From: a virus
Direction: 5' to 3' (one strand)
DNA: 36,189 nucleotides
IMG/VR virus record: IMGVR_UViG_3300020205_000310
Span: 1-36,189 of that record
Every line of letters begins with the position of its first letter. Position 1 is the first letter of the stretch. The notes beneath the pieces were generated by a model. That model was not told the DNA's origin. It made no database searches and saw only the letters and a program-made list of their open reading frames with translations. Positions 2,177 through 22,418 of this stretch are shown one piece after another. A program made the translations under genes and the position numbers.

Positions 2177-3241
2177 ATGAAAATTGCCATTTACGCCATC
2201 AGTAAAAATGAAGAACAATTTGTAAAACGTTTCTACGAGTCTGCCAAAAATGCCGATCTTGTTCTTATTGCTGATACTGGTTCTACCGATAACACTGTCA
2301 GTCTTGCCCGGTCTTTGGGCATTACAGTGCATGATATCGCCGTTAAACCTTGGCGTTTTGACAAAGCCCGTGACACTGCACTTAACTTAATTCCCGGAGA
2401 CTATGATGTCTGCATCTCCCTTGACTTGGACGAAGTCATGGAACCCGGCTGGCGTGAAGAAATTGAGCGCGTATGGCAAGAAAACACAACCCGTCTACGC
2501 TATAAATTCGACTGGGGTTGTGGAATTAGCTTTTTCTACGAAAAGATTCATCACCGCACCGGCTACCACTGGCACCACCCAGTTCATGAATACCCCCGCG
2601 CTGACAACCGTACCAAGGAAGTTTACGCCCACACAGATATGCTGCTAGTCAGCCACCACCCTGATCCCACAAAATCTCGTGGTCAGTACATGCCGCTCTT
2701 GGAATTAGCTGTAGCAGAAGACCCCCGCTGCCCCCGCAATGCGTTCTACCATGCCCGTGAGTTGACGTTTTATTACCGCTGGCAAGATGCGATTGTTGCG
2801 CTTGGCAGATACCTAGACATGCCTGAAGCCAACTGGCAGAACGAGCGTTGCTACGCCATGCGCCTTTTAGCTAAATCTCATGACGAACTGGGTCACTCAG
2901 AAGAAGCCTTGAAGTGGGCACGCCTTGCTGTTGCTGAAGCCCCCGGAACTCGTGAGCCATGGGTAGAATTGTCTATGCAGTGCTACCGCAGATCAATGTG
3001 GGCTGAGTCCTACGCTGCCGCGTTATCTGCTCTAAACATCAAAGATAAACAATTGGTGTATACGATGGACCCATCGGTGTGGACTGAGAAGCCGTATGAC
3101 CTTGCCAGCATTGCTGCATGGAACCTTGGCCTCAAAGATTCTGCTATTGAATTTTGCAAAAAAGCTTTAGAATTCAACCCAACGGACAGCAGGCTTGTAT
3201 CTAATCTTGCGTCTATGGTTCCTACCGTGGAGTTGACATGA
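2177..3241 (+). CDS. family 2 glycosyltransferase with helical-repeat tail
   Basis: The 354-residue protein has a GT-A fold glycosyltransferase domain in residues 1-160. SKNEE (9-13) begins the nucleotide-sugar site, DTGSTDNT (33-40) is the usual second element, and LDLDEVM (82-88) carries the metal-binding D83-x-D85. A His-rich stretch follows (HWHHPVHEY, 131-139), then TPR-like helical repeats in about 185-340 (for example SEEALKWARLAVAEAPG). GT2-plus-TPR proteins transfer sugars to protein or glycan acceptors. Lying between a fibre chaperone and the lysis block, it could glycosylate a fibre or alter the host surface; neither is shown by the sequence. Acceptor and donor are unknown. AAAGGAAAT lies just upstream of the ATG. 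Confidence 0.85.
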   Translation: MKIAIYAISKNEEQFVKRFYESAKNADLVLIADTGSTDNTVSLARSLGITVHDIAVKPWRFDKARDTALNLIPGDYDVCISLDLDEVMEPGWREEIERVWQENTTRLRYKFDWGCGISFFYEKIHHRTGYHWHHPVHEYPRADNRTKEVYAHTDMLLVSHHPDPTKSRGQYMPLLELAVAEDPRCPRNAFYHARELTFYYRWQDAIVALGRYLDMPEANWQNERCYAMRLLAKSHDELGHSEEALKWARLAVAEAPGTREPWVELSMQCYRRSMWAESYAAALSALNIKDKQLVYTMDPSVWTEKPYDLASIAAWNLGLKDSAIEFCKKALEFNPTDSRLVSNLASMVPTVELT

Positions 3242-6123: not shown

Positions 6124-7794
6124 ATGCCCGGTTTACGTATTGATAATTTTTCCGGTATCGTACCGAGGACTGGTCCCACTGCGCTTGAGGGAAACCAAGC
6201 CCAGATTGCTAATAATGCCAAGCTGACGTCTCTTGAGATTCGTCCTTGGAGAACTCCGACCTTAGAGTACACGCCCAATGGCGGCGCTAGTGTTCAGTCT
6301 GTATTTAAGTTTAGTGGGCCCTCCGGCTCATCACCTGTATGGCTTGAGTGGAACTATGACGTAGACGTTGTCCCTGGCCCAGTAGCCGACTTGTCCGAAT
6401 TTCGTTTGTACTTTACAAGCTCAGGGTTTACCCCTAGAAAGACTAACTGGGCACTTGCTACCAGTTCAGCAACAGCCCCCTATCCAAACAACTATTATGA
6501 GATGGGTGTTCCCGTCCCTGCGGGTGCACCAGCAGTAACCAAGGCTGGTACAGGCACTGCGCCTACAGAAGACCGCTCTTATATATACACATACGTTACT
6601 ACGTTTGGTAGTGTGGCAGAAGAATCTGCCCCTAGTCCAGCAACCATTATTTCAGGTGTTAATACATCAGGCGACGCTGTAACGATTACAAGTTTCTCCA
6701 CGCCTCCCGCTGGCAACTACAACTTTACACACCGCCGTATTTATCGGTCAGTGATTGGAGCTACGACAGCCTCCTATTTGTTTGTGGCTGAGATTCCAAT
6801 TGCCACGGCGACTTATGTAGACACTAAGACAATTGCCCAGCTTGGCGCGGCCTTGCAGTCACTGTATTACACACCCCCACCTTCCACGCTGCAAGGTATT
6901 GTGTCTATGCCTAACGGCTTGCTGGCTGGGTTTACGGGCAATCAAATTTGGTTCTGTGAGCCGTATCTCCCCCATGCTTGGCCTGCTATATACATGCTGA
7001 CTACGGACTACCCCATTGTGGGCCTTGGCGTGTTTGGGAATTCTTTGTTTGTGGGGACCACACGCAATCCTTACATGGTAACTGGCACGACACCGTCCAG
7101 CATGATGCAGGAGAAGCTGTCGCTTGTGCAACCTTGCGTGGCCAAGAAATCTATTGTCTCTGACCAGTATGGCGTTTTGTACGCAAGCCCTAACGGTTTG
7201 GTGTCTATTTCTCCAGGCGCGCAAGAAGTCATGTCTAATGCCTTGTACACCCGTGAGGAATGGCAACTCCTGAACCCGTCGAGCATGATAGGTGCCGTGT
7301 ACAACAACATGTACTTTGGTTTTTACCAAACAATAGCTGGGGCTCGTAAGTCCATTATCATTCTGCGTGGGGATAACCCGCCGTTGGCTACGTTTGATTC
7401 CAACGCCAAAGCTAAGTTTGTTGAACCAGTCACTGGCACAGTGTATTTCTTGTCTGCCGCAGATAACAAGATTTATTCACTTGATACCAACACAGCCGCT
7501 AACACGGTGTTTACATGGCGGTCTAAGAAGTTCATTCACAACCGGCCTACAACTTATGCTGCACTGCAATTACACGCAGATTACGTATACATGGCGGCTA
7601 ACGCTGGTTCGTACCTTACAGTAAATCTGTATGCTGAAGGCCAAGGGGTGCTGACTATTAATATGACTGGCGATGAGCCTGTGCGTATTCCCAACGTGAC
7701 CCGTTCATATTACTGGGAAATTGAAGTTGTTGGAAACGTCCCAGTTCGCCGCGTCACTATAGCCACATCTGTTGATGAGTTGGAGATGGCTTAA
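6124..7794 (+). CDS. 556-residue virion structural protein, probably tail-associated
   Basis: The protein starts MPGLRIDNFSGIVPRTGP, an opening I associate with conserved podovirus virion proteins of unnamed function. It is beta-rich throughout, with no signal peptide or membrane helix. Residues about 135-230 (TEDRSYIYTYVTTFGSVAEE, then NFTHRRIYRS) resemble a fibronectin type III domain. The region after 250 has repeated short strands with VGLGVFGNSLFVGTTRNPY and YGVLYASPNGLVSISP, which look like beta-propeller blades. It shares one base with the next start (TAATG) and sits before the J-like fibre. A tail-hub, stopper or needle-adaptor role is possible but unproven. Confidence 0.65.
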   Translation: MPGLRIDNFSGIVPRTGPTALEGNQAQIANNAKLTSLEIRPWRTPTLEYTPNGGASVQSVFKFSGPSGSSPVWLEWNYDVDVVPGPVADLSEFRLYFTSSGFTPRKTNWALATSSATAPYPNNYYEMGVPVPAGAPAVTKAGTGTAPTEDRSYIYTYVTTFGSVAEESAPSPATIISGVNTSGDAVTITSFSTPPAGNYNFTHRRIYRSVIGATTASYLFVAEIPIATATYVDTKTIAQLGAALQSLYYTPPPSTLQGIVSMPNGLLAGFTGNQIWFCEPYLPHAWPAIYMLTTDYPIVGLGVFGNSLFVGTTRNPYMVTGTTPSSMMQEKLSLVQPCVAKKSIVSDQYGVLYASPNGLVSISPGAQEVMSNALYTREEWQLLNPSSMIGAVYNNMYFGFYQTIAGARKSIIILRGDNPPLATFDSNAKAKFVEPVTGTVYFLSAADNKIYSLDTNTAANTVFTWRSKKFIHNRPTTYAALQLHADYVYMAANAGSYLTVNLYAEGQGVLTINMTGDEPVRIPNVTRSYYWEIEVVGNVPVRRVTIATSVDELEMA

Positions 7795-9704
7795 TGTCTG
7801 CTCTGCCAAGACTACCGGGTATACCCTCAATTTCTCCGGTCCAAGACACGACCATAGCAGCAATCCTTCGCCCAATGAAGGAAAGTATAGAGATTCTTGG
7901 CGGGGCAATATCGGGTAATCCCTTACCTAATGGCACAACTATTAACAGCGGCCTTAATCCTGCCATCTCTCTTACAACCATTACCAATGTCTATGACGGG
8001 GCTACGGACACAACTCCGCCGCCAACACCATCAGGGTTAACCATTAGTGCTGGTTTTACAAACATTCTGTTGAGCTGGACTGACCCTAATACCTCAGGCA
8101 CGTTTCTTAACTATGCTTATACAGAAGTCTGGCGTTCAGTAGATAACGTTTTAGCTAATGCTGTATTGCAAGGTTTTGCCCCAGGCGCAGTTTATTCTGA
8201 CCCCGTAGGAACCAACAAAAGTTTCTACTACTGGATTCGGTTTGTATCTCAGGCTGACATTGCTGGCCCCTACAACAGTTCTATAGGTACGCTTGGTGGT
8301 ACCGGCCTTGTGGGTGGTGTGGACCTTGGCCCTTTGATTGTTGATGCTACCAAGCTGGCAGCTGATGCGGTCGAGTCCGGCAAAATCAAAGACGCTGCAA
8401 TTACGACAACTAAGATTGCTAACCTTGCCGTAGGTAATGCGGCTATTGCCAACTTGGCTGTCACAAATGCAAAAATCGGCAATCTTGCCGTTGATGATGC
8501 AAAAATTTCCGACTTATCGGTCAACAAGCTTACTGCTGGTTCTGTATCCGTAGGGCAGTACATCCAGTCAACTGGCTTTTCCTCCGGTACAAATGGTTGG
8601 AAAATTGACGGTAACGGTTCTGCCGAATTTGGCTCAGCTTCCATTCGTGGGCAAATTACTGCGGCTCAGATTGACTCTCGTGGGCTGTCTATTAAGAACA
8701 GTTCTGGCACAGTTATCTTTGCAGCAGGTACAAACCTTGAAGCTCAGTTCATTAACCCAGCAGCTGGCTGGTTAAATTCAGCACTTGTACCCAGCATAAC
8801 AACAGCTCAAAGCACGGCTGACACAGCAAACTCAAACGCTAGTACAGCACTCTCTACAGCAAATACGGCTAATACAAACGCTTCTACTGCACTTAGTAGC
8901 GTAGCTGGTAAGCTGTCCAAAGCAGGCGACACAATTACTGGACGGGTTACGTTCTCTGTAGCTGACGGTATGTTTGCTGGCACCGACACCAATAATGGTG
9001 TGTATTTTGGTAGCACCGGCCTACTTGGCCGAAAAGCTGGAGTCAATACTTTCTATATAAATACTGCAGGTGATGCGGTATTTGGCGGTTCTCTGTCTGC
9101 AGCTACAGGTAGTTTTGCTGGTTCTATGGCTGTGGGGTCTAGTCCTACACTAGTAACTGGGCCAACCATGACGGGGTCTGGTGCCAATATTTACAGTACT
9201 GGTAACTTTGTTCTTGGGAATGCCGCTACCAATATTTCGTTTAATGGCACAACAATGAAGCTTAACGGCGACATTGTTAATACCAACAGTATCCCGCTGG
9301 GGGCTATCTCTACTACGGTTAGTGCCACAGGCGCTATTAACTTTGTCTTTACAACCAGTACGGCAACTTCGGTCTCAACCGCTGCCACTACATTTCCGGT
9401 CGGTACGGTAATTAATTGTTTTTTTACAGCCGTCAAAGTTGATTATGGCGCTGGAGATATCAATTTACTACTAAACCTTCGGACGTCTGGTGGCACCCTT
9501 GTGGCTACATTCCTAGGGCAGTCAGGCCTTGAAGCAGTACAAACCATGGGACCTGGCGGGGATAAAGTGACTGCTACCTTTACTGGAACCTACGTCATTC
9601 CTTTTGATGGGTCTTTTGTAGTTGAAGCTTATATCTCCAACGGGTACGGTAATTCTTGGACTTGTAAACACGCAGATTTAATTGTATTAGCGAGCAAACG
9701 ATGA
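7794..9704 (+). CDS. host-specificity (J-like) tail tip/fibre protein
   Basis: The 636-residue protein is likely a receptor-binding tip. Residues about 75-170 form a fibronectin type III-like domain (PSGLTISAGFTNILLSWTDP, with YYWIRFVS). Residues 187-246 are six 10-residue repeats of the type KIANLAVGNA. The following segment has FSSGTNGWKIDGNGSAEFGS and ITAAQIDSRGLSIKNSSGT, the C-terminal signature of lambda gpJ-type tip proteins. A second repeat region (TANSNASTALS, TANTNASTALS, about 345-370) looks like a coiled-coil or stalk, followed by a beta-rich head. The next gene, overlapping by ATGA, is a fibre-assembly chaperone paralogue, supporting the fibre assignment. Confidence 0.75.
   Translation: MSALPRLPGIPSISPVQDTTIAAILRPMKESIEILGGAISGNPLPNGTTINSGLNPAISLTTITNVYDGATDTTPPPTPSGLTISAGFTNILLSWTDPNTSGTFLNYAYTEVWRSVDNVLANAVLQGFAPGAVYSDPVGTNKSFYYWIRFVSQADIAGPYNSSIGTLGGTGLVGGVDLGPLIVDATKLAADAVESGKIKDAAITTTKIANLAVGNAAIANLAVTNAKIGNLAVDDAKISDLSVNKLTAGSVSVGQYIQSTGFSSGTNGWKIDGNGSAEFGSASIRGQITAAQIDSRGLSIKNSSGTVIFAAGTNLEAQFINPAAGWLNSALVPSITTAQSTADTANSNASTALSTANTANTNASTALSSVAGKLSKAGDTITGRVTFSVADGMFAGTDTNNGVYFGSTGLLGRKAGVNTFYINTAGDAVFGGSLSAATGSFAGSMAVGSSPTLVTGPTMTGSGANIYSTGNFVLGNAATNISFNGTTMKLNGDIVNTNSIPLGAISTTVSATGAINFVFTTSTATSVSTAATTFPVGTVINCFFTAVKVDYGAGDINLLLNLRTSGGTLVATFLGQSGLEAVQTMGPGGDKVTATFTGTYVIPFDGSFVVEAYISNGYGNSWTCKHADLIVLASKR
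8352..8531 (+). repeat. six tandem 30-base units coding a 10-residue fibre repeat
   Basis: Within the J-like fibre gene, six consecutive 30-base units encode KLAADAVESG, KIKDAAITTT, KIANLAVGNA, AIANLAVTNA, KIGNLAVDDA and KISDLSVNKL. The third to fifth units are most alike in DNA as well as protein (AT-C-AA-CTTG-C-GT pattern). Such decads occur in fibre stalks and could expand or contract by recombination, changing fibre length. Confidence 0.7.
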
Positions 9705-10163: not shown

Positions 10164-10616
10164 ATGAGTAATCATACACTTCGGCCCTTGTCCCCATGGA
10201 TAACCGAGTCTGTAAAAGACTTGGAGGCTCAGGAGTTTCTGACGCTTGTATTGAATGCTATTGAAGTCTGGGACGACATTGTCGATAAAGACGACCGCAT
10301 TTCTGTAGACGACATCCATAACGTATTTACTCAACTACTGGTTAAGTTACCAGCCAATGCGTTTTATCAACGAAATTACACAGCGTTAGCTGGAATGATT
10401 ATTGTCATGATCACATCTTGGCACACTTCAAACGCTAACCAAGGCACAGATGAAACTAGAGCTCATGCTTATACGCTACGCAAAGAATTTATAAATTTAG
10501 TTGTTATGTGTGTTGCGCTTACAGACAGTATTGCCCAAGCTCGTATGGCTTCATTATTGGGGTGGACTGATTCTGCAACCAACGATTCTTTTAACGAATT
10601 TTCAAGGGGTGAATAA
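10164..10616 (+). CDS. 150-residue protein of unknown function, virion block
   Basis: The product is mostly helical and acidic, with a hydrophobic stretch near the middle (YTALAGMIIVMITSW, about 72-86) and another at FINLVVMCVALTDSIA (about 112-127). These could be buried helices or two membrane helices. It precedes, with a one-base overlap, the first of three large ejection-type proteins, so it is probably expressed with them. No purine-rich ribosome-binding site is visible upstream of the ATG. I recognise no family and assign no function. Confidence 0.6.
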   Translation: MSNHTLRPLSPWITESVKDLEAQEFLTLVLNAIEVWDDIVDKDDRISVDDIHNVFTQLLVKLPANAFYQRNYTALAGMIIVMITSWHTSNANQGTDETRAHAYTLRKEFINLVVMCVALTDSIAQARMASLLGWTDSATNDSFNEFSRGE

Positions 10617-11665
10617 TGGGATTCTGGGGCGGCTCTTCAGCACCTGCAGCCGATCCAAATATCGGCGAAGCGCAGAAACAAATGTCTGATCTGGCAACAG
10701 AGCAGTGGAACACATTTAAAACCGACATCTATCCAAAGCTTATTGCTCAGATGGATAAAGAAACATCCCGTGCTGATGCAGTATGGGCTATGGATAAAGG
10801 CATTGCTGAATTCCAAATGAAGAATGCGCAGACTGACCGCGCTATTTACGAAACATATGGACTTGCTGCTGGTAAAAAATTAGTCGACGACGCTAATCAG
10901 TATAGTGAAAAAGGCTACCAAGAACAGATGGCTGGCCAAGCTGTCGGCGACATTGCCGCAGCAGAAGAAGTGGCGCGTCAAACCGGAATTCAACGTGACC
11001 GTTCTTATGGCATCGATCCAACATCGGGTCGTTCTGGTTTAGGTTTTAACGCAAACAACGTAACTGCCGCTCTTGCCAAAGCACAAGCTGGCACGCAAAC
11101 ACGCGAAGCTGCTAAGCAACTTGGTCTACAGAAACAAGCCAACGTATACAACATGGCTGCAGGCCTTCCTGCTCAATCGCTTGCTGGTTCCAATGCTGCC
11201 GTAGGCACTAATACTGCAGGCATGGACGCTTCAGGTAAAGCTCTCTCTGGTGTAGCTGTTACATCGGGTGCCATGAATAACGCAACCCAAACTGCTATGG
11301 GCGGATGGAATAACGTTGGGCGTTTAGGCGTTGATAAATATACCGCTGATTTGAAACGTTACTCAGCTGATGCTGAATCATCTGCCGGGTTTGGTAAAGC
11401 CCTCGGTACTTTGGGCGCAGCGTATATGCAGTTTGGTTCTGATATTAATATTAAACAGCATGTGCATCAAATTGGTACGTTAACCAACGGATTCCCGTTG
11501 TATGCGTTTGAATACAAACCAGAATACCAAGACACATGGGGCCACGGTATCCAGATTGGTGTGATGGCGCAAGACATTGAATTAACTTTACCTGAAGCGG
11601 TTTCCATTCACCCCGATGGATACAAACTTGTTGACTACGATAAGGTGATGAATCATGGGATTTAA
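10616..11665 (+). CDS. virion protein with C-terminal endosialidase-type (S74) chaperone domain
   Basis: The 349-residue product begins MGFWGGSSAPAADPNIGEAQ and has a long Ala/Gln-rich helical body (about 15-270), like podovirus internal virion proteins. Residues 274-345 match the intramolecular chaperone of endosialidase (Peptidase_S74, PF13884). They read GSDINIKQHVHQIGTLTNGF, then YAFEYK, GVMAQDIE, PEAV and YKLVDYDKV. The Ser-Lys pair used for self-cleavage in that family appears as S275 and K280 with the usual five-residue spacing, so release of about 75 C-terminal residues is possible. These domains usually end tail fibres and spikes; here the body looks like an ejection protein, which is unusual. 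It overlaps the next gene by 11 bases. Confidence 0.7.
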   Translation: MGFWGGSSAPAADPNIGEAQKQMSDLATEQWNTFKTDIYPKLIAQMDKETSRADAVWAMDKGIAEFQMKNAQTDRAIYETYGLAAGKKLVDDANQYSEKGYQEQMAGQAVGDIAAAEEVARQTGIQRDRSYGIDPTSGRSGLGFNANNVTAALAKAQAGTQTREAAKQLGLQKQANVYNMAAGLPAQSLAGSNAAVGTNTAGMDASGKALSGVAVTSGAMNNATQTAMGGWNNVGRLGVDKYTADLKRYSADAESSAGFGKALGTLGAAYMQFGSDINIKQHVHQIGTLTNGFPLYAFEYKPEYQDTWGHGIQIGVMAQDIELTLPEAVSIHPDGYKLVDYDKVMNHGI

Positions 11666-13289
11666 CTTAGGTGCAGCATTAAGCGGAGCCGCTGAAGGCG
11701 CTTCTGATACTTACTTCAAACTTAAAAAGCAAAAGCGTGAAGACGAGGAGATGCAACAGCGCAAAGAAGTTCACGAGGCTTGGAAGCGTGAGCAGTCCGA
11801 AAATGAACAGCTAAAAGCATTGGCTGGTGAAACACTAGGCCGGTCGGACACCCCTGAAGCATGGAGAACTGCTGGTGGGGCAAGGGGCCCCCAACTTGAA
11901 AACGACCAAGCAGCACTGCCTGCTAATGCTGCAGAAGCTTTCCCTGCGCAAAAAATGTACAGTCGCGACCAAGCGATGAAAGACTTTACAACCAGGGCCA
12001 TGGGTATCAACCCAACCAAGGCAATGGAATACGAGACTAAAGGTTTACAAAACCAAGGCGCTCGCCAAAACCTTAAAAAAGGCGAATATGAGTTGACATC
12101 GCTAGAACGTAGCGCAAGACTAGATTCGGCGTTTGAATCGTACATGGCAGAAACTCATAAAAAACTTACTGGGATGAGGCAAGATATTCAAGGCACGTTT
12201 GATACAGACGGCATGAATGGACTTGTTAAGAAGTATGGTTCTGATTTTAAAGACGCTACAGGTAACTCAGTTGCCTTAGTTGGTAATGCTCTTGTTATCA
12301 AAGACCCCAAAGGCAAAGTAATTGGTCAGCCTGTTACACGTCCCGAAGATGCTGTGAATGCGTTGTCCAACGTGATTGGGCAAAAAGCTATGCAATCTAG
12401 TCTTGATGGTATGTTGCAAAAAGGTTTGTTCCGAAATTCTGCTGAGATGTTGTCGTACTTCAAAGACCGCAATACCATGGAGACGCAGACAAGCAACGCG
12501 CAATCCCAACGTATGTCAGCTATGGCTTCTCAAACTTCAGCCAATGCTTCAGCACAGAATGCAGCAACGCAAGCATCAATTGCGTCTTCTACAATTGCTC
12601 AGAATAATGCGCAAGCAGCCATGTACAACGCACATGCTGGGGTCTACAACCAGACGTTGAAAGTGGCAGAGACCAATAAAGAAGCCCGTGAGGCAATGCA
12701 ACCGTTCCTTGATGACATTGCTAAGCTTGTTGATCCAAATGGTAAAGACAGAGCTGAGTTTGACCGTTTGTCTATGAAAGCAATGGCTGCTGGTGCAACT
12801 AAGTCAGCTGATATTAAAGGTTTGTTTGAATCCGCTAAGCGGGCTGATAAATCAAATGCGCCTGAGGTTGATCCAGAAGCCAAGAAAGCTGCTTACAAAG
12901 AACTGTCTGAAGTTGGTACAGACCCTAAAGCTATTAAAGCCGTTATGGATAAATGGGAAATGGTGTTTGGTCCAAATGAGACTACTAAGGCTGTAATGGC
13001 TGCCGAAGCAAGACGAAAAGCCTCACAGGGAAACCCTGTGGCACCTGCTCCAGCAGCGGCTCCAGCGGCGGCTCCAACAGCAATTCCAACGGCTGCTGCA
13101 CCACCAGCTGCGCCTGTTGCGCCTGCAACTGCACTACCAACTAACATTCCTCCTGTAACATCTTCAACAATTCAGGGACCTAAAAAGTACCAAATTAAAG
13201 GAGTGATTGGGTTGTTTAAAACTCCTGAAGAAGCTCAAGCTGCATGGGCGCAAAAGTATGCGCCTAAAGCCCCTGCTATGTTCGATTAA
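11655..13289 (+). CDS. 544-residue internal virion (ejection) protein
   Basis: The protein starts MGFNLGAALSGAAEGASDTYFKLKKQ, a short glycine/alanine-rich amphipathic segment followed by a long charged coiled coil rich in Gln, Glu and Ala, typical of DNA-ejection proteins of podoviruses. A second helical segment (about 275-335) is almost pure Ala/Ser/Asn/Gln. Residues about 450-500 are an Ala/Pro low-complexity linker. The C-terminal 40 residues (KKYQIKGVIGLFKTPEEAQA and onward) look like a small folded tail, perhaps contacting the giant protein encoded next. There is no enzyme motif. Role inferred from composition and from lying between the S74 protein and the giant protein. Confidence 0.65.
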   Translation: MGFNLGAALSGAAEGASDTYFKLKKQKREDEEMQQRKEVHEAWKREQSENEQLKALAGETLGRSDTPEAWRTAGGARGPQLENDQAALPANAAEAFPAQKMYSRDQAMKDFTTRAMGINPTKAMEYETKGLQNQGARQNLKKGEYELTSLERSARLDSAFESYMAETHKKLTGMRQDIQGTFDTDGMNGLVKKYGSDFKDATGNSVALVGNALVIKDPKGKVIGQPVTRPEDAVNALSNVIGQKAMQSSLDGMLQKGLFRNSAEMLSYFKDRNTMETQTSNAQSQRMSAMASQTSANASAQNAATQASIASSTIAQNNAQAAMYNAHAGVYNQTLKVAETNKEAREAMQPFLDDIAKLVDPNGKDRAEFDRLSMKAMAAGATKSADIKGLFESAKRADKSNAPEVDPEAKKAAYKELSEVGTDPKAIKAVMDKWEMVFGPNETTKAVMAAEARRKASQGNPVAPAPAAAPAAAPTAIPTAAAPPAAPVAPATALPTNIPPVTSSTIQGPKKYQIKGVIGLFKTPEEAQAAWAQKYAPKAPAMFD

Positions 13290-13300
13290 AAGGTCTGTAA

Positions 13301-16300
13301 ATGGCGACACTTGAACAGCTACGGTCTTTATTCCCTGACGCTGGGTCTGACTCTGACGTTATTAAATCGGCGGCAAAAGAGTTTGGACTTAGCCCTGCTC
13401 AAATTGCAACTGATATTGGGTATGACATCAGTAAACCTGGTTTTGTATCGGACGTTAAACGTGGTACCGGCCAAGTCATTGGTGCGTTTGGATCAACTGC
13501 AAGAGACCTTGGATTGCCCAATGTTGGTAAAGCTGTTGAAGGTTACGGCGAAGACATTCAATTTAGAAACCCGTCACAAATCAATACGGTTAAGCAGGCC
13601 TTATCCAGCCCACTTACTACTGCACGTGAAGCACTGGGCGAAGTCGTACCTCAGATTGGCTCGTCCACTGCGTTTGGCTTAGGCGGTCGTTTTATTGGCG
13701 GAGCAATTGGTTCGTTGGCTGGCCCTGGCGGAACTCTACTTGGACAAAGTCTTGGCGCTGCTGGCGGTGCATATGTCGGTAACTTAATCCAAGAATACGG
13801 TGGCATTCGCTCTGAACAACGCGAACAAGGTATTGAAGATAAGAAACGTGCCTTAGGAACCGGTGCTGCAGCTGCGGCTTTAGATACAGCGTTTGGTACT
13901 GAACGCGTTGTCAATAAATTTTTAACCAAGGGCTCTGACATTCTGGCGCGTGAAGCGGGAACCAGTCTTTTAAAGAACGTTGGTAAACAAACTGCTATTG
14001 GTCTTGGCACTGAAGCTTTGACAGAGACTGGCCAGACTGCACTTGAGCGGTATGGTGCTTACAAAGAATTGACTGGTGACGAAGCCCTTAACGAGTATGG
14101 CTTAGCTGCTATCAAAGGCGGTATTGGCGGTGGTGTTATTCGTGGTGGCTTGTCTGCTATTGCTGGTGAGCGCCCAATCCAAAGTGGTAACGATATCCAA
14201 CAGGCGTTTAGTCAACCTGACGTCAGCGGCACACCCACATCCAATATATTGCCTCCACCCCCACCCCCTCCCGCGCCTAATGTTGTAACACCTGCAAACA
14301 ACCCAGACCCAGTAGCCCGTATGGCTGAGCTAGAGGGTTTGACCAAGGGCGCAAATGGTCGTCTGTTGACTGACGTAGAAAATCAAGAATATCAAGCACT
14401 CAAAGCTCAAGCAGCAACTCTGACACCCCCCGCTGTAACAGGCGGCACAACAGATATTGCTCAGCAGACTCAAGCCGCTGCTGCTGAAAATCAGCAAGTG
14501 CAAGAAGCACAGCAAAAGTTAGTCAGCCGTGAAGAAGTGTTTGGCAAAGTAGCCACACTGTACAATCCAGAGAATCCAACTTCGTTAAACATATTTGGGC
14601 AAAACATTGAAGGCCCACGTGTTGAAACATTTGGTAATCGTTTTGCTACTGTATTTAATACACTGCCCCCGCACGTTCAGACACTTGCTCAAGCTATTAC
14701 ACAAGCAAACAAAGCGTTTGCTACGCCTGAAAAGCCAAGCCCACTGGTCAGTTTTAGTTTTAACGCTAACAACCCAGTAACTTCTGCTGAGAAAGCGCTT
14801 GAAGCCTTAGGTAAGGTGATGACCAAGTTCCAGATTGACCACGTTCAATCATTGGATGAAGCAGTACAGATTCTCAACAAGCTCTCGACGACTACCAAAG
14901 GTAATCAACTGGAGCAACTTAACGCCATCTACGAAGCCATTACTGGCCAAGATACAGATGGATTCACAGCAGCACAAGCCACTAAGGCGGAAAAAGGAGC
15001 TAAAGATGGAAAATTGCCATTGCAAACAACTACCGGGCTGGGAGCAGTATCAGTCGAAGGCGGAACAGGACAAGCAAATGATGGAAACGATGGGAATGTA
15101 CAATCCAGCAACGTTCAATCCGTCGGGACAGGAAGTCTCCCTGCAGGATCGCTTGGCCTCCAAACTGGACAGCAGGCAGGAGAAGGAATACGGACTGGCA
15201 CCGGTGCAGACACCAGTGTTGTCGATGGTAATGCGTCGACGCAAGTAATAGGAGCTACAAATGAACAAGCCAGCCAAAGCGCTTTGGGTGGCGGGGAAAC
15301 ATCCGGTCAATCCCAGCAAGCCGGTGCAGCCAACTTGGATCAACAATCTGTTCAAGATGGCTCAAGAACGTATGACCCCCGTATTACCTTCTACTCAACC
15401 GACCTCAGCCACATCTCCAGCGAACGTCGCATCGAAATAATTTCTGATCTGTTATTAAAAGTTTTAGCTCCCAAGCAAGAACGTAAAAATACAGTCCCCG
15501 CAGCAACGCGGGCAGAGATTCTGCGATTGGCTTTATTGGAACAATTCCGCCATACAGACATTGCAGCATATACAGGCCTTAAAGTAGACGCTGTGCAAAA
15601 ACAACTTGAGCGCATGGGCGTTAAGTTGGTTGATGGTGAATTCCAAGTAATCGACCCTGAGTTTGCAGCTCGTATTGTTGCGACTGCTACTTCATATCGT
15701 TCGCCTGAGTTTCCTGATGGAATTGGCCAAGGCGAGCTGTCCGGTTTATACAACACTCGTTATGAAGGTGAAGAGCAATCTGCCGCATCCTTAGCAGAAG
15801 AACTTGAAGCCGGAGAACAAGAAGGTAAACCTGGGGCCAAACTGCAAGAAGAACTAGGTGGTAAAGAAGACGCTGAAGGTCAAACCATGGGCACGGTATC
15901 CACTGCGGGTGGCAGCCAAGGTGCTGTAGATAGTGAAGCCGCTGCGTTTTTTGATAAAGTTGAAAAGCTCCAAACAGAACTGGAAGCATTGCCTCCTAAA
16001 GACCCGCGTCGTGCGGCCAAAGCAGAACAGCTTCAAAAATTGTGGGCTGACTATGCTAAGTCACAAGAAAAGCGCAGAGCCAAGGGCGAGGCTGTTGTAG
16101 AAGAAGGAGACGAAAATGCCGTTCAAGAGTCAAGCACAGAGGAAGTTCCTGTTCAAAAACGAACCGGAGGTGGCAAAAAGGTGGGCAAAGGAAACGCCCA
16201 AGGAGGCAAAGCTGCCGGAAAAGCTGAAGTCAAACAAGAAGCCAAGCCCGAAGAAATAAAAACCCCCGCTGAAGAGTGGGCCAATCTGTCTAAATTAGCT

Positions 16301-19300
16301 CCGGAACTACCTCCATATGACGTTCTTACAAACTCTGAAAAATCTCGGTGGGATGATCTCGTCCGCCGTGGACAAGCTAACCTTGCTGCTGCTGTCAAAA
16401 TTATCGGTGAAAGTGCTCAACCTGCTGGCACAACGGTGGCCAACCAAGGGCCTCAGGCAACGGGCGCTACTGGAACTACTGAAGCGGTAACGCCCAAGTT
16501 TGGTTCAGACCAAGCAGTTGTTAAGAATCCATACACCGCTGCTGAACTAACTACAGAGATTGAAAACTTTATACGTGCTGACATTTTTGACCGCAAGCTG
16601 GTCATTGTTGACAGCATTGAAGACCTACTTAACTCACGCCTGGATGACTTGCGTGCATTGGCTAAAGCCATTAGCGATAAAGGTGCGTATGGTGTTGCTG
16701 CTGATGGCACTGCGTATTTGATTGCCAATCGCATTAGTAAAGGTGAAGGTCGTGCTAAGTTTATGCACGAAGTCGGGGCCCACTTAGGCCTTGAGAACCT
16801 GTTGCCTACAGTTGTCTATGACAAACTGGTCGACCAATTAGAAACATGGGCTGCAGCAAATGATGGCTCACTTGAATCTAAGTTGGCTAACAAAGCTAGA
16901 GAACGTGTAGGTTACGCTGCAACGCCTACTGTAGACCAACGCAATGAATTGTTGGCTTACTTTGTTGAAGAAGCCATGCTGGCGGGTGTTGATCCTACGG
17001 CTACTGCAAAAGAATCAGGTCCGTTGTACGCATGGTTCCGCACACTATGGGCAGCATTTAAAGTTGCGGTTCGTCGCCTTGGATTTAAACCTGAAAAGCT
17101 AACAGCCCAAGACGTGGTTAATATGGCCTACGGTGCCGCCCGTTTGGAAATGTCTGGCACATGGCACGGTACTGCTGCTACGTACCGTAAATTCAACCAC
17201 AACTTTATGAGTACTGGCGAAGGTGCCCAAGCTTACGGTTGGGGTTCTTATCTTGCCCAAGCCGTTGGTATCGGTAAAGGTTACTGGTGGAATGACGTTA
17301 AGCGGAAAGAAATATCTACTGTTGAAAATACAATTAAACAATATGTTGGATGGCGCTTTGAAGAATCAGTTTTGCATCCAGAAGACAGACAAGAAATTGC
17401 CTACGCAGGTTCGCAAATAAAAGTAGCTAAGGACTTAGCAGAAGCAGTTTCTATGAATCCGGCTGAGTATGCGACGCCCGGTTATTTAACGCGCCGTTTA
17501 GTTGAAGCAGGGGTGGACTACATCAAATTAATTTCGCCAACAGGAGAAAAGAAAACTGTTCGAATTGCTCCCCCCGCTGGTAATTTGATGCGTGTTGACA
17601 CTGCTGTATCCAACAGCGAAATGCTTGATTGGGATGCTTCATTTGCTGACCAGCCGCAACTTGTTCGGGACTTTGTCAAAGGCGAGGCTGCCACAATTAA
17701 AGCCATGAACGACAATGGTGCCAGTATTCGTATTAAAAATGGCGAGGATATTTATAAGTATTTGATTCTAAAGTTCTGGGTTGCAAACAACTTTAATGGC
17801 TCGTGGAAAAATGCAACGCCTGAACAGCGTATGGAAGTCAAGAAGCAGTCGTCCAAGTATTTGGAAGCAAACGGCATTCAGGGTATTCGTTTCTTAGATG
17901 CCAACAGCCGTACCCCAACAGCGCTTGACCGCTCTATTGTTTTTGATGGTAAGAAATACACACGCGATGCTTTAGTTGCCCAATCTAAAAACGCTCGTGC
18001 TTTGTCAATTGATGAGCAAATCCCGTTTACCATCATGCGTCATTTGTTGCGCAACACAGTGGCCGAATTCCGCCAAGAACTGCAAGCCAGACAAGAAAGA
18101 TATATAGCAACATTTACAGATTCTCTTGTTAAATCCTTTAGAAAATCAAACTTTCCAGCTGTGGCTGATATAAGAGAACGTGCGCAAAAATCAGCAAGCA
18201 CAACGTATGAAGCTAAGTTATTGGCGTGGCTTGATGCAAATGAAAGCAAAATAAAGATTGTTGACGGCAATCAAGCCCCTGTCACGCGTAACCTTGTTAT
18301 ATTCAATGAGAAGAACATTCAACGCGTTGGCTCAGAAGTTAGTGCTAATAGAGAGCGCATGAAGTTTGGTATTGCTGGCCAACGTTCGTTTGACAACTTA
18401 GACCCTGCCGAAGCCAATAGACTTAAAGCCCAGTTGGTAAAAGCCAAACTGATGGCAGCTGCTGGCAACGGCGCAGACAAGACGTGGACTGAGACCGGAT
18501 GGTTCAAAGGTGTAGACGGTAAATGGAAATATGAAATTCCTGATACCAACGCTAAGTTTAAGCCGCAAAAAACTAACGGTATTGAAGGCAAGGTAAAAGT
18601 AGATGAATTCTACGATCTAGAAGATATCCTTGATCACCCAGCTTTATTTAAAGCATACCCGCAGCTCAAAGATTACCAAATAATGTTTGATCAAGACTTG
18701 CCGCCTAACAATGCAAGTTTTAATGCTTTCCAAGGAAAGATAACAATGTCTGGGCAGGACTGGGCTGATATGCCTACGCTACTGCATGAACTCCAACACG
18801 CTATCCAGTATATTGAAGGGTTTACTCGAGGCGGTTCTTCAGCCTCAATTGCCGATCCATTTGCGTTAAGTTCACTTATTAAATTTCAAGCAATTCTGGA
18901 ACAAAGACAACAAAAAAATGGCGCTAGAGTTGCTGAAGAAATTGTTGGGTTTATGCAGTTGTGGGACGACGATGTTAACGCGGCTCAACTTGCCCTTGCA
19001 ACAAACACTGACCCAAGCCGCAAGGCAACGCTTCAGATGGACTTAGACAGAAAGATTGATGAGTACGTCACAGCCGCAAAAGACACTTTAGAGAATTTTA
19101 ATATTTCTGAAGACCAACTACGAGGTTATTTGTATTCGGGTATTGCAGGCGAACAAGAAGCGCGCTTAGTAGAAGACCGACTTAAGTTGTCAGACACGCA
19201 GCTAAAATACACACTTCCTAGACTGCCATATGATGAACGTGCCACGCTGTTCACAGATAAAACTGGCATGTCCATGAAGTTTGGTGTTACTCCACCAGCT

Positions 19301-22114
19301 ACCGTTGACAGAGCAATCAGTGTGCTGCCAAAGCCACTACAAAAATCAACGCGTGGTATTGTGACCAACCTACTCCATCAAGCCAAGCGTGGTTTGTATG
19401 CGTCTGCAATTACCGAAGACTTAGCTGGCATGGCTAAAAAGTACATGCCTTCGGTGACCAAGTATCTAGAAGCCCAGTACGCACGTCAGGCTACCCGCTT
19501 GACTTTTGAAAAGCGTATTGAAAACATCTTGGCTGCTTATGACAAATTACCTCAAAACCTACAAGGCGAAGGTAAAGGCAGCGTCAATGAATATATTCAT
19601 GACTCGACACGCGAGAAGAAGTGGGGCTATTACCCAGGTGAGCAGCAAATTGGGACTAAGTTATTCCAAGTAGACGAAGACTTCAAGAAACGCTTTGACG
19701 CTTTCCCAGCTGCCGCACAGCAGGTTATTAAAGACGTGTTCCGCCATGGCCACGATGCTTTGACACTTAAACAGCAAGCAGCTGAGAACGCAGTGAACCG
19801 CGAGTTTGAAGCTCGTATTAAAGCTGCCGCCAACGATGCTGATCTGTTACAGCAGATTGCCAAAGAGAAGAAGCAGATGCTTAAACGCATCACTAGTATT
19901 CGCAATGTTAGCGTGGGTGACCCTTATGCGTACCTTGGACGTTACGGTGATTATGTTGTAGTTGCCAAGTCTAAAGAGTTCATTGCTTATGAAGAAGCTG
20001 CCAAGGGTACTCAAGCTCGCGTAGGCGCTGACTCTATTACTGGTGACCCACAGCAAGCCAAGAACTGGTTGCAAGAGAACGTAGCCAACCCAATGCATTA
20101 CGTCGTTCAGTTTGCTGAAACGCAAAACGAAGCCGATGAAATTGCCGCTCAGTTGCAAGCCACTGGTCAATATGACATACAGCCTGAGGATGCAGGTATT
20201 AAAGAAGCCAATGCGTCTTACGTGGGCGGCTCGGATATTCACCTTGCTGTGGCCCGTTTGCGCAACATGGCCTCGCGCTCAGAGTCTACTGATGACAAGT
20301 TAGACAAAGCAATTGCTGATCTGTATCTGATGACTGTTGCTGATGCCAGTGCTCGTGCCTCTGAACTCCAGCGTAAAAACGTTGCAGGCGCAGACAAGAA
20401 CATGATGCGTAACTTGGCTACCAGTGGTCGTGCGGATGCACACTTCTTGGCTACGATGGAACACAGTGATGAGATTAATGACTCACTAGAAGCCATGCGC
20501 AATGAGGCTCGTAATGATCGTCGCGAAGCCATGCCGATGTATAACGAACTGTTTATACGTCACGCGAACAGCATGAACTACCAGCCTGTTGGCGACTTGG
20601 CTACTGCCCTGACACGCATGACAACATTGTGGACTTTGTCTACTAACCCAGCGTTCTATCTCCAGCAGGTGCTTCAGACTTCCGTACTGTCCCTGCCGTT
20701 TATGGCGGGTCGTCTAGGTTACTTCCGTTCTGCTCGGGCAATCAAGCGTGCTTACGGTGACATGTCTGAGTTGGTTAAAGGCTTGGGAGTTAATGAGCAC
20801 ATTAACTTTGATAAGGCCCCCGCAGATGTGCGCAACATGCTCAACACACTGGTTGGCATGGGTAAGATTGACCTTGGTATCGACGCTGAAGCCAAGGCGC
20901 GCACAGGCGAAGACGGCGTGCTTGGTAAAGTAATGCTCAAGCTGCAAGGTGTTAATACACGTATTGAGTCAATCAACCGTGCCACTGCTGCCATCGCTGC
21001 TTACCGTGGGTATTTAGATCGCTATAAGAACGGTGATACGGCTGCGGCTACCAAGTACGCGGCTGATGTAGTGTCCAACACGCACGGCTCTTACGATGGA
21101 TTTAACACACCTCGTATCATGTCAGGCGATGTGGGTAGAGTTGCGTTGCAATTCAAACGCTTCCAGATCATTCAGCTGTCTATGTTAGCCAAGCTGATTC
21201 ATACTTCATTTAAAGGTGCAAGCGCAGATGAAAAAGCTGTAGCTCGTGCTTCACTGAAGTTTATCGTGGCTCACATGGCTGTACTTGGCGGTGCACTTGG
21301 TGTACCGTTTGTCTCCCAAGCCGCTTGGATTCTGTCTAAAGTGTTTGGTGATGAGGACGAGCCCGATGATTACGAGTACAAACTGCGTCGCATGATAGGT
21401 GACGGCCCTGCCGCTGACCTGTTGCTTCGTGGTGTACCTGCCGCATTAGGCTTAGAGTCTTTGGGTAAGAAGTTATCCATGGAAAACGTTGCGTCTCCAT
21501 TTGGTCCTTTTGTAGACCCCGATATAACTTCTCGTACTGGTGCTGAAAAAATGTTAGTGGGGATGATGGGCCCAGCCGCTAATATCGGGCTGAAGTTTAC
21601 AGACGCGCTTGGCATGATGACCAAGGGTAATTACTATAAAGGCCTAGAGTTGGCGTTGCCTAATGGCGTAGCCAATGTGATGAGGGGCATGCGTTTTGCC
21701 AATGAAGGCATTACGATGCGTAATGGGGACTTGGTGTTAAAGCCTGAAGATGTCAGCCTAATTGATGCTGCATTCCAAGCTGTTGGTCTCCCCACAACGA
21801 CCATTACTGATAGACAATACACACAGAAAGTTGTTGTCGAATTTGACAAGTTCTATTCTGAGCGTGCGGCTGATATTAAACGTAGTTATGTGGAAGGTTC
21901 TCGAGACAGTGACTCAGCAGCAATGGCTGAAGCACGTGAAGACTGGCAGAAATTGCAGGAGTCGAGAGTTAAGAACGGTTACAAGCGTCAGTCAATGTCT
22001 GAGTTGTTCCGTGCACCAGCTGAAGCGCGTAAGCGTGAGCGTGGTGTTGTTGGTGGTGTAGAAACCACTAAATCAAATCGTAGGTTTGTCGAGCAAGTAA
22101 GCTCAGTTTCTTAA
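13301..22114 (+). CDS. 2937-residue giant polyvalent protein, PLxRFG type, probably ejected into the host
   Basis: The chain, in order, has these parts: a glycine-rich hydrophobic region (about 125-165); a proline run (about 317-327) and Gln/Gly/Ser linkers; a helix-turn-helix-like segment (about 740-772, ILRLALLEQF through VDAVQKQLERMG); a zincin-like HEVGAH (1156-1161) followed by ELLAYFVEEAM; and an ADP-ribosyltransferase-like polyvalent domain with HGT (1289-1291), STGEGAQAYGWGSYLA (1304-1319), GIRFLDANSR (1528-1537) and NLVIFN (1664-1669). After these come a second zincin HELQH (1829-1833) with EGF-x-RGG after it, a degenerate PLxRFG motif YLGRYGDYVVVA (from 2211), LQFKRF (2616-2621), and a hydrophobic stretch at about 2654-2680. 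These are hallmarks of large polyvalent proteins, which enter the host with phage or plasmid DNA. Each activity is inferred from motifs only. Confidence 0.8.
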   Translation: MATLEQLRSLFPDAGSDSDVIKSAAKEFGLSPAQIATDIGYDISKPGFVSDVKRGTGQVIGAFGSTARDLGLPNVGKAVEGYGEDIQFRNPSQINTVKQALSSPLTTAREALGEVVPQIGSSTAFGLGGRFIGGAIGSLAGPGGTLLGQSLGAAGGAYVGNLIQEYGGIRSEQREQGIEDKKRALGTGAAAAALDTAFGTERVVNKFLTKGSDILAREAGTSLLKNVGKQTAIGLGTEALTETGQTALERYGAYKELTGDEALNEYGLAAIKGGIGGGVIRGGLSAIAGERPIQSGNDIQQAFSQPDVSGTPTSNILPPPPPPPAPNVVTPANNPDPVARMAELEGLTKGANGRLLTDVENQEYQALKAQAATLTPPAVTGGTTDIAQQTQAAAAENQQVQEAQQKLVSREEVFGKVATLYNPENPTSLNIFGQNIEGPRVETFGNRFATVFNTLPPHVQTLAQAITQANKAFATPEKPSPLVSFSFNANNPVTSAEKALEALGKVMTKFQIDHVQSLDEAVQILNKLSTTTKGNQLEQLNAIYEAITGQDTDGFTAAQATKAEKGAKDGKLPLQTTTGLGAVSVEGGTGQANDGNDGNVQSSNVQSVGTGSLPAGSLGLQTGQQAGEGIRTGTGADTSVVDGNASTQVIGATNEQASQSALGGGETSGQSQQAGAANLDQQSVQDGSRTYDPRITFYSTDLSHISSERRIEIISDLLLKVLAPKQERKNTVPAATRAEILRLALLEQFRHTDIAAYTGLKVDAVQKQLERMGVKLVDGEFQVIDPEFAARIVATATSYRSPEFPDGIGQGELSGLYNTRYEGEEQSAASLAEELEAGEQEGKPGAKLQEELGGKEDAEGQTMGTVSTAGGSQGAVDSEAAAFFDKVEKLQTELEALPPKDPRRAAKAEQLQKLWADYAKSQEKRRAKGEAVVEEGDENAVQESSTEEVPVQKRTGGGKKVGKGNAQGGKAAGKAEVKQEAKPEEIKTPAEEWANLSKLAPELPPYDVLTNSEKSRWDDLVRRGQANLAAAVKIIGESAQPAGTTVANQGPQATGATGTTEAVTPKFGSDQAVVKNPYTAAELTTEIENFIRADIFDRKLVIVDSIEDLLNSRLDDLRALAKAISDKGAYGVAADGTAYLIANRISKGEGRAKFMHEVGAHLGLENLLPTVVYDKLVDQLETWAAANDGSLESKLANKARERVGYAATPTVDQRNELLAYFVEEAMLAGVDPTATAKESGPLYAWFRTLWAAFKVAVRRLGFKPEKLTAQDVVNMAYGAARLEMSGTWHGTAATYRKFNHNFMSTGEGAQAYGWGSYLAQAVGIGKGYWWNDVKRKEISTVENTIKQYVGWRFEESVLHPEDRQEIAYAGSQIKVAKDLAEAVSMNPAEYATPGYLTRRLVEAGVDYIKLISPTGEKKTVRIAPPAGNLMRVDTAVSNSEMLDWDASFADQPQLVRDFVKGEAATIKAMNDNGASIRIKNGEDIYKYLILKFWVANNFNGSWKNATPEQRMEVKKQSSKYLEANGIQGIRFLDANSRTPTALDRSIVFDGKKYTRDALVAQSKNARALSIDEQIPFTIMRHLLRNTVAEFRQELQARQERYIATFTDSLVKSFRKSNFPAVADIRERAQKSASTTYEAKLLAWLDANESKIKIVDGNQAPVTRNLVIFNEKNIQRVGSEVSANRERMKFGIAGQRSFDNLDPAEANRLKAQLVKAKLMAAAGNGADKTWTETGWFKGVDGKWKYEIPDTNAKFKPQKTNGIEGKVKVDEFYDLEDILDHPALFKAYPQLKDYQIMFDQDLPPNNASFNAFQGKITMSGQDWADMPTLLHELQHAIQYIEGFTRGGSSASIADPFALSSLIKFQAILEQRQQKNGARVAEEIVGFMQLWDDDVNAAQLALATNTDPSRKATLQMDLDRKIDEYVTAAKDTLENFNISEDQLRGYLYSGIAGEQEARLVEDRLKLSDTQLKYTLPRLPYDERATLFTDKTGMSMKFGVTPPATVDRAISVLPKPLQKSTRGIVTNLLHQAKRGLYASAITEDLAGMAKKYMPSVTKYLEAQYARQATRLTFEKRIENILAAYDKLPQNLQGEGKGSVNEYIHDSTREKKWGYYPGEQQIGTKLFQVDEDFKKRFDAFPAAAQQVIKDVFRHGHDALTLKQQAAENAVNREFEARIKAAANDADLLQQIAKEKKQMLKRITSIRNVSVGDPYAYLGRYGDYVVVAKSKEFIAYEEAAKGTQARVGADSITGDPQQAKNWLQENVANPMHYVVQFAETQNEADEIAAQLQATGQYDIQPEDAGIKEANASYVGGSDIHLAVARLRNMASRSESTDDKLDKAIADLYLMTVADASARASELQRKNVAGADKNMMRNLATSGRADAHFLATMEHSDEINDSLEAMRNEARNDRREAMPMYNELFIRHANSMNYQPVGDLATALTRMTTLWTLSTNPAFYLQQVLQTSVLSLPFMAGRLGYFRSARAIKRAYGDMSELVKGLGVNEHINFDKAPADVRNMLNTLVGMGKIDLGIDAEAKARTGEDGVLGKVMLKLQGVNTRIESINRATAAIAAYRGYLDRYKNGDTAAATKYAADVVSNTHGSYDGFNTPRIMSGDVGRVALQFKRFQIIQLSMLAKLIHTSFKGASADEKAVARASLKFIVAHMAVLGGALGVPFVSQAAWILSKVFGDEDEPDDYEYKLRRMIGDGPAADLLLRGVPAALGLESLGKKLSMENVASPFGPFVDPDITSRTGAEKMLVGMMGPAANIGLKFTDALGMMTKGNYYKGLELALPNGVANVMRGMRFANEGITMRNGDLVLKPEDVSLIDAAFQAVGLPTTTITDRQYTQKVVVEFDKFYSERAADIKRSYVEGSRDSDSAAMAEAREDWQKLQESRVKNGYKRQSMSELFRAPAEARKRERGVVGGVETTKSNRRFVEQVSSVS

Positions 22115-22121
22115 GGAGAAA

Positions 22122-22418
22122 ATGATGAGTGATCCCTCTGGTTTAAAGTCCGCCCACTTAAGTGGTGCAACAACAGGTACTTTATTTACTGGTACTTTTT
22201 ATTTGAAGAGCGTTAACTGCTTGGGTACATCCACAGCAGGTATGCTGACATTTCGTGATGGTGGCGCAACTGGTGCAATTCTTTTGCAACTAGACGTTCC
22301 TGGAAATGCAAACAACACTAACAATGTAAATATTCCAGTCCCTGGGATTTTGTTTGAGACTGATTGCTACATCACCATGCCCACTGGATACAACGTAACT
22401 GTTATCTATGGGGAGTAA
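22122..22418 (+). CDS. small beta-rich protein, probable virion component
   Basis: The 98-residue product (ATG at 22122, second ATG at 22125) follows an AAGGAG site seven bases downstream of the giant gene. The sequence is a run of Gly/Thr/Asn-rich strands (LSGATTGTLFTGTFYLKSVN, then TFRDGGATGAILLQLDVPG and ILFETDCYITMPTGYNVTVI), suggesting a compact beta sandwich like a decoration or fibre-accessory protein. Similar small proteins occur near the structural-gene ends of other phages, without a known function. There is no signal peptide. Confidence 0.6.
   Translation: MMSDPSGLKSAHLSGATTGTLFTGTFYLKSVNCLGTSTAGMLTFRDGGATGAILLQLDVPGNANNTNNVNIPVPGILFETDCYITMPTGYNVTVIYGE

Follow-up and report, generated by a model that had tools for sequence, protein, structure and literature searches.

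A viral polyvalent protein with conserved ends, exchangeable internal cargo and candidate processing sites at its module borders

The window analysed here is the whole 36,189-base record of an uncultivated virus, which is probably a fragment. It carries, as a single copy, a gene for a large polyvalent protein, which is an ATG-to-stop frame of 2937 codons without internal stops. This gene and the late-gene run that precedes it are as follows.

6124-7794: match to 'internal virion protein', in the late-gene run before the polyvalent gene
7794-9704: tail fibre, in the same late-gene run
10164-10616, plus strand: 150-residue protein conserved in close relatives (PHROG 21390; synteny)
10616-11665, plus strand: virion structural or DNA ejection protein (PHROG 8003, 'virion structural protein', 1e-36; PHROG 4287, 'DNA ejection protein', 7e-10)
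11655-13289, plus strand: 544-residue protein directly upstream of the polyvalent gene, hypervariable in the synteny comparison of relatives
13301-22114, plus strand: polyvalent protein gene, 2937 residues

The gene order around the polyvalent gene was kept in close relatives, several of them with the 22122-22418 gene, while distant relatives kept parts of it. The original prediction had placed the protein in the ejection slot, directly behind two ejection-type proteins. The slot was borne out, with virion and ejection genes preceding the polyvalent gene and their order conserved in relatives. As for the two neighbours, the product of 10616-11665 has ejection-type homology while that of 11655-13289 matched no family in the PHROG scan, so this part of the prediction holds for one of the two only. 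In L002 and L019 the outer genes are 88-99% identical to those of the window, but the 544-residue product only about 29-30%. This protein may act as a partner that is matched to the polyvalent, cargo-bearing protein. Directly after the polyvalent gene lies a gene for a 98-residue protein (22122-22418), which is conserved at 55-82% in several relatives and gave no family match. The genes past the polyvalent gene on the opposite strand include matches to primase, helicase and polymerase. A beta-1,4-glycosyltransferase match (PHROG 13126, E=8e-101) was also found among the late genes, at 2177-3241.

The modules of the polyvalent protein, all on the plus strand, are the following.

13301-16495, plus strand: residues 1-1065, N-terminal chassis in which a globular helix-turn-helix island lies among long linker-like stretches (conservation in closer relatives; composition)
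15509-15613, plus strand: helix-turn-helix segment, residues 737-771 (supported through relatives)
16496-17155, plus strand: zincin 1 module of the HEXXXH type, residues 1066-1285, with HEVGAH at 16766-16783 (alignment of relatives, 80 viral loci)
17156-18355, plus strand: predicted ADP-ribosyltransferase (ART) module, residues 1286-1685, with H1289, Y1317 and D1533 (conserved blocks, relatives' profiles, model match)
18425-18562, plus strand: LPD23 domain, residues 1709-1754 (Pfam PF18838, E=2.3e-15)
18785-18799, plus strand: zincin 2 motif HELQH of the HEXXH type, residues 1829-1833 (conserved in relatives)
19286-22111, plus strand: C-terminal chassis with PLxRFG tail, PYAYLGRYG at 19922-19948 (NF032893, E=2e-87; PHROG 10089, E=1e-50)

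The helix-turn-helix was weak in the window protein alone (Sigma70_r4_2, E=0.058; 4e-4 for the isolated segment), while among 13 relatives Sigma70_r4_2 was matched in 11 (best 1.3e-6) and HTH_23 in eight. Through these relatives, residues 737-771 can be assigned as a probable helix-turn-helix of the sigma-70 region 4 type. The HEVGAH of zincin 1, which starts at residue 1156, was conserved in relatives together with an invariant downstream Glu, Ala and Tyr (ELLAYFVEE); HEVGAH with this Glu forms the signature of zincin metallopeptidases. HELQH, which falls inside the LPD23 module (residues 1686-1992), is of the HEXXH type, and both zincins are predicted metallopeptidases. The sequence profile of zincin 1 gave no convincing match in the PDB.

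Residues H1289, Y1317 and D1533 lie in conserved blocks and agree with the H-Y-D active site described for the ARTs of polyvalent proteins by Iyer et al. (2017; PMC5512222). The window protein did not match Pfam ART-PolyVal (PF18760) at E<=1, while in the alignment of the middle region nine of 23 rows matched it at E<=0.1 (best 2e-5), so that homology to this family is established via relatives only. Structural matches were also sought with predicted models: the AF2 model of the ART region resembled viral 'ART-PolyVal-like' models of BFVD (E about 6e-9), whereas a Foldseek search of both AF2 models against the PDB returned nothing useful and matched no PDB ART. The PLxRFG tail scored 294 bits with NF032893 over residues 2269-2914, against a curated cut-off of 100. 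The C-terminal chassis (residues 1993-2937) was predicted to be helical by AF2 and had no PDB match by Foldseek or by sequence profiles. Similarity to phage isolates, as seen by tblastn, was limited to the tail and the LPD23-zincin.

A helix-turn-helix, two zincins, an ART, an LPD23 domain and a PLxRFG tail are therefore combined in one polypeptide, as in phage polyvalent proteins of the known kind, and each domain named in the original prediction was recovered. Its suggestion that the exact domain order may be new did not survive, because L002 and L004 have the same order, as does L003 over the part that its contig covers; architectures of this sort were, moreover, already described in 2017 (PMC5512222). 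The polyvalent proteins of Iyer et al. are also large multi-domain proteins encoded near late genes, with zincins, an H-Y-D ART, LPD domains and DNA-binding segments. They are described there as having variable architectures, while the window protein has an N- and a C-terminal chassis with one internal cargo bay.

The name of the tail family in PHROG and RefSeq suggests another function, the protection of phage DNA from type I restriction in the manner of DarB, and PHROG 10089 ('DarB-like antirestriction') indeed matched residues 1972-2930. DarB is defined by an adenine methylase and a SWI2/SNF2 helicase. This match is confined to the tail, and the LPD36-adenine methylase-SWI2/SNF2 helicase of DarB had no match in the window protein in the Pfam, PHROG and NCBIfam scans, so the name is no guide to function, and we consider this role very improbable. 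Counter-restriction by the DarB mechanism was accordingly set aside as unlikely, the enzyme domains of DarB being absent. PADLOC also gave no match for the window protein; its library lists defence systems, which makes this result weak with respect to counter-defence, a possible function of the protein.

The closest precedent for the slot bears the same family name. The DarB-like gp69 of Burkholderia phage JC1 was found in the virion by mass spectrometry and is encoded directly after two virion proteins (PMC9144972). Compared by description and family name, this Bcep22-like protein and the window protein share the PLxRFG/'DarB-like antirestriction' tail family and are each the product of a single huge gene behind two virion genes; gp69 is 4515 residues long, while the window protein has 2937 residues, an ART and zincins, and no methylase-helicase match. 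Synteny and this distant virion-borne relative suggest that the window protein is packaged in the virion, from which it would be ejected with the DNA.

Relatives were collected from IMG/VR scans and compared by blastp. Across about 40 of them, the ends of the protein formed a conserved chassis and the middle was exchanged. The identity of the tail was about 34-99% in the main group and fell to about 20-22% in distant relatives, while the N-terminal part was kept in closer relatives only. Breakpoints recurred near residues 1066, 1686-1691 and 1990-2002, where cargo was missing or replaced. Residues 1286-1685 were absent from four relatives (L005, L006, L011 and L012), and other relatives lacked about 1166-2000 and had other modules instead. 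The alternative cargo included ParB_N (L002 and L010), an ATLF-like zincin (L037 and L040), ART-PolyVal and, in L033, L035, L040 and L053, a YkuD (L,D-transpeptidase) module, which is possibly a cell-wall payload.

Two relatives illustrate the exchange. L086, which is one contig with L018, was 64% identical to the window protein over residues 1066-1691, 35% over the C-terminal chassis and about 23% over the N-terminal part; the difference between block and tail implies that the zincin-ART block moved between lineages. The outer genes of L019 were 93-99% identical to those of the window, yet its 544-residue upstream gene was only 30% identical and its cargo was replaced, so diversity is concentrated at the polyvalent locus. 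A conserved N- and C-terminal chassis with an internal cargo bay would be a new layout, as read from the sequences of one lineage. The MuF polymorphic toxins of temperate phages (PMC5576092) are also phage structural proteins with exchangeable effector domains, but their variable domain is C-terminal, behind MuF, whereas in the window protein two chassis parts flank an internal cargo; no N-terminal MuF domain was matched in the window protein in Pfam and PHROG scans.

The protein could also be mainly structural, an internal or ejection protein whose enzyme-like domains have decayed or take part in assembly, without an effector role. Its gene does lie in the late structural slot, and the large helical PLxRFG tail is conserved down to about 20% identity. 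However, the active-site residues of the ART and of both zincins are intact and conserved, and the cargo is exchanged for other enzyme families, which makes a purely structural role improbable.

Each module border of the window protein carries the short motif (M)KFG, which was observed three times against 0.5 expected by composition.

16496-16504, plus strand: junction motif site 1, K1066-F-G, 90 residues before HEVGAH (alignment, motif statistics)
18362-18370, plus strand: junction motif site 2, K1688-F-G (alignment of relatives)
19277-19285, plus strand: junction motif site 3, K1993-F-G, where the C-terminal chassis starts (alignment, tail-junction comparison; linker with low AF2 confidence in both models)

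In the wider set, the motif class is a hydrophobic residue followed by [KRQ]-[FY]-[GS], usually then by K or R, and lies at module borders, before HEXXXH and before the PLxRFG tail. We counted it in an independent set of 29 proteins, outside those that formed the idea and with less than 60% zincin identity. Positions -95 to -80 of HEXXXH held the motif in 10 of the 29 proteins against 0.96 expected (p=2e-8), and the motif with a basic residue in nine against 0.15 (p=2e-14); ahead of PLxRFG it was found in 10 of 15 against 1.24 (p=3e-8), while reversed and permuted control motifs were at expectation. An unbiased scan of 39 proteins ranked [KRQ][FYW][GS][KRQ] first of 1284 reduced-alphabet 4-mers in the linker before the HEXXXH zincin (13 against 0.71 expected, p=1e-12). 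All of these p-values are optimistic, since the compared proteins share ancestry. About two thirds of the independent set lacked the motif before the zincin, as did several prophages.

The motif was associated with the type of peptidase. Of 27 proteins with a HEXXXH zincin, 24 had it at the tail junction; of 13 with a HEXXH zincin, none did (p=5e-8). The tail identities of the two classes overlap (29-100% and 34-79%, respectively), so the motif follows the peptidase type and not the chassis. In most members the subtypes were paired at both sites, HEVG[AGS]H with KFG or QFG and HEVGVH with [KR][FY]S. In Vibrio phage 1F273_PE002 the motif lies at -89 and +124 of HELIGH. The Vibrio fischeri phage douglas 12A4 has it at positions -90 and +124 relative to HELITH, which would place cut ends near residues 1873 and 2087 of its 3027-residue frame. 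A gammaproteobacterial prophage (L221) has RFS at 1868, RYSR at 2104 and RFSK at 2307, around a HEILAH zincin and ahead of the PLxRFG tail; two of these three copies come after NPDT or NPDI. We rejected a universal junction motif, since the tail junctions of HEXXH-type members and several PLxRFG prophages are without it.

The three sites of the window are all AAG TTT GGT, and in 13 relatives every site except one has AAG for the lysine, though AAA is commoner in the window gene. The motif could thus be a recombination seam, or a frozen cassette edge, in which a short shared DNA word, ATGAAGTTTGGT, lets cassettes recombine and nothing is cut. The identity of the three window sites fits this explanation, as do the coincidence of the cassette breakpoints with the motif and the between-site codons of 13 relatives, which were identical in 55 of 75 comparisons against 35.6 expected from codon usage. 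However, in distant phages the peptide class persists amid unrelated flanking sequence, although its residues and codons differ (QFS, RYS, RFS), and HEXXH-type proteins lack the motif at the tail junction although cassettes swap there as well. We therefore regard a seam without cutting as unlikely, while the motif could be seam and cut site at once. The motif-to-motif block may also be inherited as one piece, which would by itself give the association of motif with peptidase.

AF2 confidence was low around the border sites, which lie in linker-like parts of the models. Site 1 was modelled as a short beta-strand (model residues 27-30) and might therefore belong structurally to the zincin. The motif could also serve structure or docking, as a strand or linear motif with which the linker packs against the zincin or some other virion protein and where nothing is cut. 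Such an element would account for the strand beside the zincin and for the spacing to HEXXXH, fixed at 80-95 residues. It accounts poorly for sites 2 and 3, which are in low-confidence linkers distant in sequence from the zincin, and for the recurrence of the peptide class at up to three unrelated positions per protein; we rate it as slightly less probable than the seam.

The motif statistics point instead to the junction motifs being, most likely, candidate cut sites of the built-in HEXXXH peptidase. We give a probability of about 0.6 to the reading that the protein is a virion-carried chassis with exchangeable cargo, in which the motifs are processing sites of the HEXXXH peptidase for the release of modules. 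The two chassis parts, residues 1-1065 at the N-terminus and 1993-2937 with PLxRFG at the C-terminus, would probably anchor the protein in the particle and aid ejection, while the middle would supply the HEXXXH zincin and a payload, here the ART and the LPD23-zincin. Self-cutting at 1066, 1688 and 1993, which the motif statistics suggest, would free a peptidase-ART piece of about 620 residues and an LPD23-zincin piece of about 305 residues from the two chassis parts. The freed ART could then modify host proteins early in infection, as its H-Y-D site and the precedent of phage T4 Alt suggest. Alt is also an ADP-ribosyltransferase that is packaged and injected, as described in PMC5512222, but it has an R-S-E active site in place of H-Y-D and is not polyvalent.

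The same paper proposes that the MPTase splits polyvalent proteins, without giving a cleavage site, and neither the passages of it found here nor the open-licence literature searched yielded a cleavage motif for the zincins of these proteins. It also describes DdrB of phage P1, a polyvalent protein with a C-terminal zincin, as processed prior to packaging, and the virion RNA polymerase of N4, also with an MPTase, as packaged unprocessed, which counts against processing. In DdrB (L182; phage P1 24542-27529, minus strand), RFS occurs once, at residue 756, which is 116 residues before HELGHH. Unlike the usual motif, this RFS has no basic residue after S; a cut there would give an N-terminal piece of 82 kDa, near but not equal to the 76 kDa reported. 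A self-processing code common to phage polyvalent proteins, in which the HEXXXH zincin and [KRQ]-[FY]-[GS] border sites co-vary and any cargo between the sites is released after injection from a general exchangeable delivery chassis, is a tentative extension to which we give a little less than even odds.

The protein itself is thus of a known kind, and what is new is its cargo-bay layout together with the candidate processing code. The layout would allow early-acting phage effectors to be listed automatically, by taking whatever sits between the conserved ends. A candidate motif with a matching peptidase type turns the 2017 proposal of cutting by zincins into a simple experiment, and the processing code, if real, would explain how such proteins come apart into separate tools inside the bacterium.
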